64,000 nucleotides of DNA from Desulfitobacterium metallireducens DSM 15288. Lineage in GTDB: Bacteria > Bacillota > Desulfitobacteriia > Desulfitobacteriales > Desulfitobacteriaceae. The translations under genes were made by a program, and so were the position numbers. Location of the stretch: positions 1,240,001-1,304,000 of the forward strand of contig NZ_CP007032.1 of the NCBI RefSeq assembly GCF_000231405.2, given 5' to 3'. Below the pieces are notes generated by a model. It was not told the DNA's origin, made no database searches, and was given only the letters and a program-made list of their open reading frames with translations. This document shows positions 3,982 through 51,827 of the stretch, piece by piece. The stretch's first letter is position 1. Every line of letters begins with the position of its first letter.

Positions 3982-6021
3982 GTGGAGTTCAAGTATTCCG
4001 TTTGCCCTCATGATTGTCCAGATACTTGTGCTTGGAAAATAGAACTCAGTCAAGGTCGAATTCAAAGAATTATGGGAGATCCTTTACACCCTGTGACGCA
4101 AGGGGTGATTTGTGAAAAGGCAAAATATTATGTAGAACGGATTTATGGATCTGATCGTGTTCTTTTTCCGATGAGGAGAAGTGGACCCAAAGGAAGTGGA
4201 CAATTTGAGCGAATCTCGTGGGAAGAGGCTATGAATGAGATTACGCAGAGATGGCAAACCTTGATTGATAAACACGGAGCAGAGTGCATTTTGCCCTATT
4301 CATATGCTGGGACAGAAGGAATCATTAATAAAGCCAGCATGGACCGTCGATTTTTTAATCGGCTGGCTTCAACTCAGCTTGAAAGAACGATTTGCTCAGC
4401 GGCAGGTAGCGCCGGGTACCAAATGGCCTATGGTGCGTCTCGAGGAGTTAACCCGCTTGAAACGGTAAAAGCACGCTTTCTGCTTTTTTGGGGGATCAAT
4501 GTCCTGGAAACAAATTTGCACCAAGCCATGCTGGCGAATCGAGCCCGTCAAAACGGAGCGAAGATCGTAGTTATCGATATTCACCTAAATAAAACAGCCA
4601 AATGGGCGGACGAGTTCTATCAAATCCTTCCTGGATCAGATGGGGCCTTGGCACTGGGGTTAGCCCACGTAATCGTGCGCGATGGGGTACACGATTTAGC
4701 ATGGATCGAGAAGTATATCCAAGGCTTTAAGGAATTCAATGAGGAAATTAAGAATTATCCACCTGAGCGTGTGGCGAAAATTACGGGTTTAACCGAGGTG
4801 GAGGTTGTTAAGTTAGCGCATGAATATGGTGAGGCGCATCCCAGTTTTATTCGAATCGGCAATGGCTTTCAGCATCATGAGAACGGGGGAATGTCGACTT
4901 GGGCGATTGCTTGTTTGCCTGCTCTTACAGGAGCCTGGAAGGATCAGGGAGGCGGTCTGCTTAAATTTAATTCGGGTTATTTTCCCTTGAACAAGGATGC
5001 GGTTGAACGTCCTGATCTCTTAAAATCCTCTCCTCGAGTCGTGAACATGAACCAATTAGGAAGGGCTTTGACGAACCTGAAGCCTTCAATTTATGCTCTT
5101 TATGTTTATAATAGTAATCCGGCTGCAGTAGCCCCTGAACAAAAATTAGTTTTGGAGGGACTAGCACGGGAAGACCTCTTTACGGTGGTTCATGAGCAAG
5201 TATGGACGGATACTGCCCGTTGGGCGGATCTCGTTTTACCTGCAACAACTCATGTTGAGCATGCAGATCTTTATGTAAGTTATTGGCATGGTATTTTACA
5301 ATGGGCTGATCCAATTATTCCTCGTCAAGGGGAAAGTAAACCCAATATTGAAGTATTTCAAGAACTGGCTCAACGAATGGGATTTCAGGAGGCGTGTTTT
5401 CAGGAGACGACAGAGGATATCGCCCGCAGTGCCTTAATGACATCAGCTTTGCAGAAGCAAGGCATCGATTTAGAACGTTTAAAAGCTGAACGGTATATTC
5501 CGCTTGAAATGGAAGAACTTCCTTTTATCGACCATAAGCCAGGTACACCGAGTGGTAAGATTGAGTTATATTCTGAACGCGCTCAGGTGTTGGGACTGTC
5601 GCCGGTTCCTACCTATATTCCCCTTGTGGAAGGCCTAGAAACAGAAGACCTCGAACATCCTTTAATGTTAATTTCTCCGCCTCACCATCTTATTCTTAAT
5701 TCGACCTTCGCCCAAATCGAGAGTGTTCAAAGTCGCTGGAGAGGCCCAGAACTGGAGATTCACCCTGAAGATGCGCTTGTTCGTGGTATTCATGAAGGAG
5801 ACGAGGTTGAGGTATATAACGATCGCGGAAGTTGTCAACTCAAGGCAGTTGTTCGTAAAAGTGTTTTACGTGGTGTTGTTGTTACCCTCGGAGTATGGTG
5901 GCCACGGGATTACGAAAAAGGCATTGGAATCAATGCCTTAACGCCTAGCCGTCTGGCAGATATGGGAAATGGCGCAACCTTTTTCTCGAATAGAGTAGAA
6001 GTAAGGAAAGTATATGAATGA
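3982..6021 (+). CDS. Molybdopterin-dependent oxidoreductase (DMSO reductase superfamily)
   Basis: The 679-residue cytoplasmic protein is of the formate dehydrogenase/BisC-like type. An N-terminal Fe-S motif, CPHDCPDTC, with a later cysteine in VICEKAK, would bind one 4Fe-4S cluster. The bis-MGD-binding body follows, and a C-terminal molydopterin dinucleotide-binding domain begins near residue 560 (LMLISPPHHLILNSTF). No twin-arginine signal is present, and no electron-transfer or membrane subunit lies next to it, which resembles the stand-alone YoaE-like oxidoreductases. The substrate cannot be read from sequence. I start at GTG 3982, with AAAGGGTGG just upstream, so that the protein begins MEFKYSVCPHDC. 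The stop overlaps the next gene by 8 nt, so the two are probably co-translated. Confidence 0.88.
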   Translation: MEFKYSVCPHDCPDTCAWKIELSQGRIQRIMGDPLHPVTQGVICEKAKYYVERIYGSDRVLFPMRRSGPKGSGQFERISWEEAMNEITQRWQTLIDKHGAECILPYSYAGTEGIINKASMDRRFFNRLASTQLERTICSAAGSAGYQMAYGASRGVNPLETVKARFLLFWGINVLETNLHQAMLANRARQNGAKIVVIDIHLNKTAKWADEFYQILPGSDGALALGLAHVIVRDGVHDLAWIEKYIQGFKEFNEEIKNYPPERVAKITGLTEVEVVKLAHEYGEAHPSFIRIGNGFQHHENGGMSTWAIACLPALTGAWKDQGGGLLKFNSGYFPLNKDAVERPDLLKSSPRVVNMNQLGRALTNLKPSIYALYVYNSNPAAVAPEQKLVLEGLAREDLFTVVHEQVWTDTARWADLVLPATTHVEHADLYVSYWHGILQWADPIIPRQGESKPNIEVFQELAQRMGFQEACFQETTEDIARSALMTSALQKQGIDLERLKAERYIPLEMEELPFIDHKPGTPSGKIELYSERAQVLGLSPVPTYIPLVEGLETEDLEHPLMLISPPHHLILNSTFAQIESVQSRWRGPELEIHPEDALVRGIHEGDEVEVYNDRGSCQLKAVVRKSVLRGVVVTLGVWWPRDYEKGIGINALTPSRLADMGNGATFFSNRVEVRKVYE

Positions 6022-38830: not shown

Positions 38831-40177
38831 ATGGATCACGAAATAAGGGAGTTGGGAGTATATGCCCAGAAAATCGCGGTGGTCGCGAGAGATTTAGGCT
38901 TGGATTTTTATCCAGTACATTTTGAAGTTTGTCCAGCTGAGACCCTTTATACCTTTGGGGCTTATGGTATGCCTGTTCGGTTTACGCACTGGAGTTTCGG
39001 TAAATCTTTCTATCGTTTAAAAATGCAGTATGATCTGAATTTAAGCCGAATCTATGAACTTGTTATCAATTCCAATCCATCTTATGCTTTTTTACTTGAA
39101 GGAAATAGTTTGGTTCAGAATAAACTTGTGATCGGTCATGTTTATGCTCATGTCGATTTTTTTAAACATAATCATTACTTCCAACGTACGCCACAGGATA
39201 TGGTGGAGAGAATGGGAGCCCATGCCGAACAAATTCGTAAATATGAGCTTATTCATGGTCGCGAGAAGGTTGAACAGGTTTTAGATGCCGTATTATCGAT
39301 TCAAGAACATGTGGACTTTCGTGCTCATTTAGCACAAAGAAAAGAGAAAGATTCAAGGGTTCCCTCGAAAAAATATCTCAACTCTCTATATGAAGATCTT
39401 TGGGAAGAAGAAAGCCCTCAAGAAAATTTAGAAAATAAACGTGAGCATGAAGATTTATTATTGTTTATTATGGAGCATTCTTCCATATTAGAGGAATGGG
39501 AACGCGATATTATAAGTATGATTCGTGAGGAGTCGCTCTATTTCTTCCCTCAAATTGAGACCAAAATCATTAATGAGGGATGGGCCACATTTTGGCACTC
39601 ACGGATCATGCATGAACTGGACTTATCAGACGAAGAAGTGATGGATTTTGCAATGATGCATAGTCAAGTGGTACAACCGTCACGATTATCCCTCAACCCC
39701 TATTATTTGGGAGTAAAGATATGGGAAGAGCTTGCTGAAAAAAATGATATGGAGTATTTATTTGATGTTAGAGAGACGGAAAATGACGTTTCATTTATCC
39801 GAAATCATCTCGATCGTGAATTGATCGATAAATTAAATCTCTTTAATTTTAGGAAAATAGGTGCTCATTGGCAGGTTACGGATACGGATTGGGAAAAGGT
39901 TCGGGATAACCTTGTTCAACAATTAGTAAACGGGGGACATCCCAAAATCGTGGTTACCGACGGAGATTATGAAGGTAAACGCATACTCTATCTTCGACAT
40001 GCACATGAAGGGATGGATCTCGATATCGTTTATCTGGAAAAGACCCTCCTCCTCGTGCAAAAACTCTGGGGAAGAATTGCCGTGTTGGAGACGGTGATCG
40101 ATGGTAAAAAGGTTCTTTTTGAATGCCAAAATGGGTCAGTTTCTCGTAAACATCTTTCACGTCAAGCAAATGAGTAA
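38831..40177 (+). CDS. spoVR: Stage V sporulation protein R
   Basis: The 448-residue SpoVR protein is needed for cortex formation in Bacillus. Family blocks: DFYPVHFEVCPAETLYTFGAYGMPVRFTHWSFG near residue 25-57, HFFKHNHYF-like HVDFFKHNHYFQRT (about 109-122), and the conserved NEGWATFWHSRIMH (about 249-262) and NPYYLGVKIWE. It is the last gene of the operon. The stop is followed by a long non-coding region. Confidence 0.96.
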   Translation: MDHEIRELGVYAQKIAVVARDLGLDFYPVHFEVCPAETLYTFGAYGMPVRFTHWSFGKSFYRLKMQYDLNLSRIYELVINSNPSYAFLLEGNSLVQNKLVIGHVYAHVDFFKHNHYFQRTPQDMVERMGAHAEQIRKYELIHGREKVEQVLDAVLSIQEHVDFRAHLAQRKEKDSRVPSKKYLNSLYEDLWEEESPQENLENKREHEDLLLFIMEHSSILEEWERDIISMIREESLYFFPQIETKIINEGWATFWHSRIMHELDLSDEEVMDFAMMHSQVVQPSRLSLNPYYLGVKIWEELAEKNDMEYLFDVRETENDVSFIRNHLDRELIDKLNLFNFRKIGAHWQVTDTDWEKVRDNLVQQLVNGGHPKIVVTDGDYEGKRILYLRHAHEGMDLDIVYLEKTLLLVQKLWGRIAVLETVIDGKKVLFECQNGSVSRKHLSRQANE

Positions 40178-40280
40178 CTTAGGGTCGTGTAACATCTCCC
40201 CGTCGAGTTATAAGTCGACTAAGCCTTGAGTTTCGAACTCAACTCTAAGCCAAGTCTCCTATATCGTACATCCATTTACT

Positions 40281-40440
40281 TAGCGCTCCAGGGCAAGTGT
40301 ACAGGTTCTGAGGAAACTCTGCCTGGACAGCGACTTCAGCGGGGCAGAGCACATGGACGTGCTCTGCCGCCAAGTGAGCCAGGGATGGCGATTTTGGCGG
40401 CGATGTGTGCCACGGAGGGCAAAACACGAGACGCCCTCTC
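40281..40440 (+). ncRNA. Putative CsrA-binding (CsrA-sponge-like) structured RNA
   Basis: In the 412-bp gap after spoVR I see four hairpins. H1: CGCT-CCAGG-CA with TG-CCTGG-AGCG (40284-40332). H2: GGCAGAGCAC (40343-40352), loop ATGGAC, GTGCTCTGCC (40359-40368). H3: outer CCGCC-AAG with TTT-GGCGG, inner GCC, loop AGGGAT, GGC (40378-40389). H4: GTGT-GCC, loop ACGGAG, GGC and ACAC (40405-40427). H2, H3 and H4 each present a hexaloop A-N-G-G-A-N closed by C-G. H2 includes the full consensus ACANGGANGU. This is the hallmark of CsrA/RsmA sites. GAGGGC (40415-40420) can pair instead with GCCCTC (40433-40438). Upstream, 40195-40245 holds further short hairpins; no clear promoter was seen. Confidence 0.6.
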
Positions 40441-40505: not shown

Positions 40506-40562
40506 AAAAGGCTGCTACACTGTGAAACTAAGAGATTCATTGTGCAACAGCCCGTTTTATTT
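40506..40562 (+). terminator. Terminator and dispersed hairpin repeat, copy B
   Basis: GGCTGCTACACTGTGAA pairs imperfectly (about 13 of 17) with TTCATTGTGCAACAGCC around a loop near 40528-40535, followed by CGTTTTATTTTA. It probably ends the spoVR/RNA transcript. It is related to the hairpin at 29862-29914. Confidence 0.7.
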
Positions 40563-40589
40563 TAGCGAAAAATAGAAAGAGGGAGCAGT

Positions 40590-41201
40590 TTGGAAAATAT
40601 ATTTTCACAATTGGGTCAATTCGTAGTAAACTTGATTTCGAGTATGGGATATTTCGGTGTGTTTTTGGCAATGGCTATTGAAAGTGCGTGTATTCCTTTA
40701 CCCAGTGAGATTATCCTACCTTTTACAGGGTATATGGTTTATACAGGCCATTTTCAATTTTGGCCAGCAACAATTGCGGCTACTACGGGCAATCTTTTTG
40801 GCGGCTTAGTAGCTTATTTTGTCGGAGTATGGGGAGGACGCCCTTTCATCAAACGGTATGGCCATTTCATTTTTATTAAAGAAAAGGAACTCGCTTGGAC
40901 CGATCGACTATTTCGGAGGCATGGAGAAGTAACTGTTCTTTTGGGACGTATACTACCTGTTGTCCGGACGTTTATTTCTTTACCTGCGGGTATTGCCAGA
41001 ATGAATCCTGTAAAAGTGGTCATTTATACTATACTGGGTGCTTTCCCTTGGTGTATGCTATTAATTATGGTTGGGGAAAAACTAGGAGAAAATTGGAATG
41101 CATTAAAACCCTTGTTTCATCGCGTTGATCTCGTCGTGGGAGTGCTCATCTTGGCAGGTGTCTTGTATTGGTTGAGCCACCGGAAGCGCCGTAGACGCTA
41201 A
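40590..41201 (+). CDS. DedA family membrane protein
   Basis: The 203-residue protein has the DedA/VTT architecture: membrane-embedded segments with ESACIPLPSEIILPFTGYM (about 31-49) and GRILPVVRTFISLPAGIARMNP (about 120-141), which contain the acidic and Arg residues needed for function. Members flip undecaprenyl phosphate or phosphatidylethanolamine. TTG start after GAGGGAG. A second DedA gene follows after 57 nt, so the two may form a tandem unit. Confidence 0.9.
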   Translation: MENIFSQLGQFVVNLISSMGYFGVFLAMAIESACIPLPSEIILPFTGYMVYTGHFQFWPATIAATTGNLFGGLVAYFVGVWGGRPFIKRYGHFIFIKEKELAWTDRLFRRHGEVTVLLGRILPVVRTFISLPAGIARMNPVKVVIYTILGAFPWCMLLIMVGEKLGENWNALKPLFHRVDLVVGVLILAGVLYWLSHRKRRRR

Positions 41202-51619: not shown

Positions 51620-51625
51620 ATCAAC

Positions 51626-51797
51626 AGAACCTGCGTTGTTCGTAAGATTTTCTTGGTTTTGATCCTATTTATGTTTAGGGAACCGGAATGATCCGTTCAG
51701 TACGTCAAGCCCTTTTAGAGGGACGGCGGAAAGGCTGATCCAGGTACCCACCTGCGAGAGCAGGGTCAGAAACCTGGAGTTTTACGGCAAGGCGGGG
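51626..51797 (+). ncRNA. ssrS: 6S RNA
   Basis: The 330-bp gap between the wHTH gene and the phosphatase gene holds an RNA with a long closing stem: CCTGC-G-TTG-T-TCGTA (51630-51644) with TACGG-CAA-G-GCGGG (51783-51796). The single bulged U and the sequences TGTTCG and CGGCA correspond exactly to those of the closing stem of Escherichia coli 6S RNA. Inside are the hairpins GAA-CGGA with TCCG-TTC, CCCT with AGGG, and CCAGGT with ACCTGG around CCTGC and GCAGG. 6S RNA mimics an open promoter and sequesters RNA polymerase. A terminator follows. Confidence 0.78.
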
Positions 51798-51827
51798 ATG
51801 GTAGGGAGTTTATCCCTACCATTTTTA
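51798..51827 (+). terminator. Terminator of 6S RNA
   Basis: ATGGTAGGGA pairs with TCCCTACCAT (5-nt loop), followed by TTTT. Confidence 0.9.

Follow-up and report, generated by a model that had tools for sequence, protein, structure and literature searches.

A decayed TwoAYGGAY-like repeat with paired GGA hairpins downstream of spoVR in Desulfitobacterium metallireducens, a candidate CsrA platform

The intergenic interval 40281-40440, which follows spoVR in the window (the whole stretch of DNA analysed, 64 kb in length), is very probably a decayed copy of a TwoAYGGAY-like dispersed repeat. The element consists of a pair of GGA hairpins with covarying stems, is present in many copies, and has sharp boundaries and inverted-repeat-like ends. 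We propose, with a probability of about one in two, that the GGA pair of this decayed repeat is a landing platform for CsrA and that transcribed copies of the repeat titrate CsrA.

The spoVR-dedA interval and its hairpins

The features of the locus are collected in Table 1. The product of spoVR, a name which we take from the gene order after prkA and yhbH, retrieved relatives at 63-73% identity; the downstream gene is presumably dedA, as recognised from its ORF product. The terminator-like hairpin upstream of dedA has a loop larger than the terminator scan allows and is absent from the scan output. Elsewhere in the window, a 6S RNA lies at 51625-51802, above the Rfam threshold.

Table 1. Features of the spoVR-dedA region, in window coordinates
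Feature	Position	Strand	Description
spoVR	38831..40177	+	448-aa ORF; closes the prkA-yhbH-spoVR operon
Repeat block A	40180..40294	+	arm of a second subfamily of the same dispersed repeats; begins right after the spoVR stop
Hairpin 1	40343..40368	+	10-bp stem; hexaloop ATGGAC 40353-40358; includes ACATGGACGT at 40351-40360
Hairpin 2	40369..40398	+	outer stem GCCAA/TTGGC, tandem G.A, inner 3-bp GCC/GGC, hexaloop AGGGAT 40381-40386
Hairpin 3 region	40405..40439	+	4-bp stem; loop ACGGAG 40412-40417; what is left of a second module
Repeat 3' arm, GGTCGGCGAACGCCTCGCCTGAATGGATAA	40450..40500	+	shared with L016 and L017 at 84-92% identity, and found in L012 too
Terminator-like hairpin and T-run	40510..40563	+	upstream of dedA; read by eye, folded
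DedA-family membrane protein gene	40590..41201	+	203-aa ORF

The three consecutive ANGGAN hexaloop hairpins of the preliminary description are confirmed at 40343-40420, each loop being closed by C-G. When 40281-40440 was shuffled 5000 times with its dinucleotide composition preserved, no shuffle gave three such hairpins and only two gave two; on both strands of the window there is a single further C-G-closed ANGGAN hairpin (41645). The repeated hairpins are remarkable. The ACANGGAYGT string by itself is not, with about half an occurrence (0.52) expected per window by chance, and it was dropped as evidence.

The fold of the interval is very stable (z -3.1). Loops 1 and 2 have a predicted closing-pair probability of 0.997 and loop 3 of 0.088, since GGAGGGC (40414-40420) pairs with GCCCTCT (40433-40439). 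The competing GAGGGC/GCCCTC helix, initially suggested as a possible mask of the third site, is therefore the predicted dominant fold, so that two GGA loops are predicted to be exposed at the locus and the third to be masked. Compared to the double-module copy L012, the window copy carries a 24-nt deletion in the second module that removes its first hairpin, and therefore the third hairpin remains as a remnant, probably a non-functional one; a T-to-G difference from L012 strengthens the masking helix. The 5' side of the window copy is formed by block A, which belongs to the other subfamily. Two modules in tandem are found in L012 and L023 (the regions of 2446268 and 2895707 on G000:C1); L023 retains four GGA loops and L012 appears to hold an inverted segment inside.

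A TwoAYGGAY-like element

The one meaningful match in a cmscan of the window is TwoAYGGAY (RF01731, Rfam clan CL00106), at 40343-40401 with 30.6 bits, where the curated gathering threshold is 43 bits. The best copy in the genome scores 37.3 bits and none reaches 43, while relatives score up to 87. Loop 1 (ATGGAC) fits AYGGAY and loop 2 (AGGGAT) has a G at the Y position; ANGGAY loops occur in many relatives as well. The window copy retains little of the external closing stem, which most of the genome's other copies possess. We call the window copy TwoAYGGAY-like because it falls short of the RF01731 threshold and its closing stem is lost. Its second hairpin bears a tandem G.A (GA-GCC..GGC-GA) which, together with the inner stem, is nearly invariant among 19 copies. 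As to other known RNAs or riboswitches, the mir-638 and OppA matches are due to chance, which leaves the sub-threshold TwoAYGGAY.

GGA is kept in loop 2 of 73/73 relatives and in loop 1 of 71/73, while the stems covary, the pattern for which the preliminary description had proposed to look: 283 two-sided cells against 64 in shuffles (0.488 versus 0.134), figures which lean towards structure as the 73 relatives were fitted to the model. Among this genome's own copies 78 two-sided cells were counted, against 28 in shuffles (0.469 versus 0.182). The stems of hairpin 1 are diverse, with 28 different 7-nt arms. In five of the 19 copies (L042, L043, L045, L046 and L024(-)) loop 1 reads ACGAC or ACGAT and has lost its GGA, the stem and loop 2 being intact.

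The TwoAYGGAY motif was found by Weinberg et al. in 2010 (PMC2864571), and a motif-annotation paper of 2014 predicted it, as a hypothesis only, to be a CsrA-binding sRNA in Clostridia (PMC4333381). The core of the CsrA-sponge idea is thus prior art, and the initial remark that no RNA sponge is known in Firmicutes has to be corrected by reference to the sponge predicted there. We found no test of this prediction of RNA control for Firmicutes CsrA in the literature examined.

Relation to CsrA

The proposal presupposed a csrA gene, and the genome encodes one (PF02599, 82.2 bits), adjoining the flagellin gene and an ORF which we take, by recognition, to be fliW. The flagellin leader bears the same CAAGGATG hexaloop as the repeat. 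In this leader (L001), a GGC-AAGGAU-GCC hairpin at -35 is accompanied by AAGGAGG at the ribosome site, which resembles the CsrA arrangement of B. subtilis hag. Among the relatives, 71/73 contain CANGGANG, 56 of them twice, and in 49 of these 56 the two GGAs of the pair have a spacing of 24 nt. The first hairpin of nine relatives contains the exact RUACARGGAUGU, reportedly the CsrA consensus from E. coli SELEX work. CsrA can bridge two sites separated by 10-63 nt and does so best at more than 18 nt (PMC7652899), and in the flaA mRNA of C. jejuni it is titrated by a neighbouring pair of GGA hexaloops spaced by 21 nt (PMC4894983).

In a set of 398 Firmicutes, csrA is present in 47/49 RF01731-positive genomes versus 241/349 others, the two csrA-less exceptions being draft genomes of 92-94% completeness. 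All 49 RF01731-positive genomes have flagellin, and within flagellin-positive genomes the csrA association drops to p=0.025; the co-occurrence is partly a motility effect. RF01731 presence or absence is itself an incomplete measure, as R1, a covariance model built from 19 hairpin pairs of this genome, found 18-74 copies in genomes that RF01731 missed. By R1, csrA-less genomes of the organism's own family hold 0-2 copies versus 2-74 in most csrA-bearing ones: G020 and G033, without csrA and flagellin, hold 2 and 1, respectively, while G001 and G002, without csrA and with flagellin, hold none. A rank test of copies against csrA gives p=0.0006, on hand-chosen genomes and with no phylogenetic correction. 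G036 has three csrA matches and no repeat copy. Three or four csrA matches are found in each of G016, G019, G028, G029, G030 and G036, several of them on one contig within a few kb.

Binding of CsrA by the paired loops is plausible because csrA and fliW are encoded, the flagellin leader has the same loop, the spacing of the GGAs is 24 nt and csrA is present in all but two of the 49 positive genomes. Judged from these sequence features, CsrA is the likeliest partner of the paired GGA loops, and the hairpin pair is probably a genuine CsrA platform when transcribed.

The element as a dispersed repeat

The interval, used as a query, gave 23 further matches in the genome. R1 finds 30 matches at E<=1 and 28 at E<0.01 in the 3.18-Mb genome, and scores the hairpin 1 region of the window at 67 bits (E 1.4e-14). 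Desulfitobacterium-like relatives hold 74 (G004), 59 (G035), 48 (G003) and 18 (G005) matches, and most other Desulfosporosinus-like relatives tested hold 2-14. Block A has 84-87% identical counterparts at about ten other places of the genome; of 11 A-block loci checked, five have their own ANGGAN hexaloop hairpins beside the block and one (L029) has an AGGAC pentaloop hairpin there. The copies of the 3' arm in L016, L017 and L012 each lie beside a hairpin pair of their own.

The copies fold into long, imperfectly paired hairpins that are capped by the GGA pair. A unit measures about 200-300 bp, and up to about 580 bp where two units are joined, as in some head-to-head copies whose similarity ends at the inverted repeats TTGAGAATGTCTCTGGGG ... 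CCCCAGACACATGCTC, beyond which the flanks are unrelated. In G004, eleven near-identical units share the ends CCCAAGGATTTTGCTTT ... AAAGCAAAATCCTGGAGA and have unrelated right flanks. The terminal inverted repeats are TTGAGAATGTCTCTGGGG / CCCCAGACACATGCTC in the composite copies and CCCAAGGATTTTGCTTT / AAAGCAAAATCCTGGAG in G004. The dispersed copies, with their sharp boundaries and unrelated flanks, occupy many different, unrelated intergenic regions. No target-site duplication is obvious by eye at the ends of the composite copies, and the G004 unit has no match in the plasmid and phage collections. Taken as sequences, the dispersed copies look like a mobile or REP/MITE-like element, a character of this repeat of which we found no report in the literature examined.

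This picture raises the alternative that the element is a mobile or REP/MITE-like DNA repeat without any CsrA role, the GGA loops and the tandem G.A serving as recognition marks for mobility. Its hairpin would then be kept because hairpins of single-stranded DNA are recognised for mobility, as in REP/RAYT and IS200/IS605 elements. Such an element would agree with dispersed copies that are nearly identical but differ in their right flanks and have inverted-repeat-like ends, with composite units bounded by inverted repeats, with random orientation and with the fact that no conserved promoter was seen, and also with the mismatches in the stems. G.U versus A.C counts are 18 versus 42 in the core of the relatives, 54 versus 45 and 19 versus 43 in the outer arms, and, counted as distinct states in young copies, 14 versus 15; the one place where G.U is ahead of A.C is the core of the copies in this genome (16 versus 9). 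In a helix under selection as RNA, G.U would be expected to outnumber A.C, and the absence of such an excess suggests spread at the DNA level; alternatively, long stable stems may tolerate single mismatches of either kind. On the GGA strand, A.G mismatches far exceed C.T (164 versus 28, about sixfold), and the GGA strand is therefore the strand that folds; sheared G.A works in DNA too. Over G000, G003, G004 and the relatives, the structure of the stems seems to be kept strand-specifically, yet not in an RNA-typical way. A repeat with no CsrA role does not readily account for a loop that is CsrA's own hexaloop and recurs in the flagellin leader of this genome, for a 24-nt spacing that suits a CsrA dimer, and for the csrA co-occurrence, which survives the flagellin control, if weakly (p=0.025). 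We consider this alternative possible, though doubtful.

Transcription and the spoVR context

A consensus scan (sigma-70 only for promoters) found neither a promoter nor a terminator near the hairpins, and the upstream flanks of young copies, inspected by eye, are partly conserved without a shared promoter. Relative to co-directional neighbours, the GGA strand is sense in 18 cases and antisense in 31 (p=0.085, with crude ORF calling); the orientation of the repeat is random or leans antisense, and many copies are antisense to both neighbouring genes. In the window, the copy would be transcribed by read-through from spoVR alone, as far as the terminator-like hairpin.

A long hairpin at a 3' end could merely protect or terminate the mRNA, as a REP-like stabiliser with incidental GGA loops. 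The very stable fold and the intergenic position at the 3' end of spoVR agree with this, but a stabiliser has no need of the loop identity that is kept over distant Firmicutes, nor would one be expected where copies are antisense to both neighbours, which makes the explanation improbable.

The preliminary description saw in the element an independent sRNA of the CsrB/RsmZ type or a spoVR 3' UTR linking CsrA to sporulation. The CsrA-type hairpin pairs of that reading stand; a dedicated sRNA or a 3' UTR evolved for this purpose is quite improbable, since the co-directional position behind spoVR, the terminator-like hairpin downstream, the three GGA hairpins and a different three-hairpin AGGAC array downstream of spoVR in a distant relative (L032) are outweighed by the lack of a detected promoter, the non-conserved flanks of near-identical copies, their dispersal over unrelated intergenic regions and the decay of the window copy (a deletion and a masked third loop). 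A sporulation-specific role, in particular, is unsupported because the spoVR-dedA gaps of two relatives that keep the gene order (L030 and L031) have no such element. In the array of L032 (Bacillota MAG SKS1.bin106, positions 4640-4740), a 37-nt unit containing a 7-bp hairpin with an AGGAC loop occurs three times in tandem and is followed by GCC-ATGGAT-GGC; the array is compact, presents several GGA loops, differs from the dispersed repeat and lies near the contig end.

Proposed role of the repeat

CsrA control in Firmicutes is thought to be exerted by the FliW protein, and we know of no CsrB-type sRNA in the Firmicutes that have CsrA and FliW. In the explanation that we favour, a transcribed CsrA platform carried by a dispersed repeat, the tip of the GGA strand would be a TwoAYGGAY-type ANGGAN hairpin pair offering two sites to one CsrA dimer. 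A copy transcribed on the GGA strand, in the window by read-through from spoVR, would expose two loops that capture CsrA and keep it away from targets like the flagellin mRNA. Many weakly transcribed copies could together guarantee a minimum number of CsrA binding sites. The copies would have spread as DNA and the position downstream of spoVR would be accidental. That the resulting CsrA sponge is physiologically relevant can be put forward only tentatively, and the further step, that transposition of a high-copy repeat, with 74 modules or more in the richest genome, built a dispersed CsrA sponge in CsrA-FliW Firmicutes, seems rather unlikely at present.

If the proposal is correct, the free CsrA pool, flagellin and perhaps other genes depend on the load of a mobile repeat, and removing a single copy would have no visible effect. 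The orphan TwoAYGGAY motif now has both its complete architecture and its genomic setting described, and the 2014 CsrA prediction becomes testable in the culturable Desulfitobacterium and Desulfosporosinus.

Comparison with known systems

With TwoAYGGAY the element shares two adjacent A-N-GGA-N hexaloop hairpins, the tandem G.A and the external stem. The window copy differs in its score (30.6 versus 43 bits), its lost closing stem, its remnant third hairpin and a loop 2 that is AGGGAT, not AYGGAY, and the family here forms the apex of a repeat that is scattered through each genome in tens of copies. REP/REPIN elements and bacterial MITEs are likewise dispersed imperfect palindromes with inverted units and inverted-repeat-like ends; the conserved CsrA-type loops set the present repeat apart from them. 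CsrB/RsmZ of Gammaproteobacteria have similarly repeated GGA hexaloops spaced for CsrA dimers, but they are single-locus, promoter-driven, terminator-ended RNAs with many loops, whereas the repeat has two loops per unit, many units and no promoter seen. The flaA leader of C. jejuni and the hag leader of B. subtilis also combine GGA hexaloops about 20 nt apart with the presence of FliW, and mRNA-borne titration of CsrA is known for the former (PMC4894983); unlike these, the repeat lies outside the flagellin leader, which has its own site.
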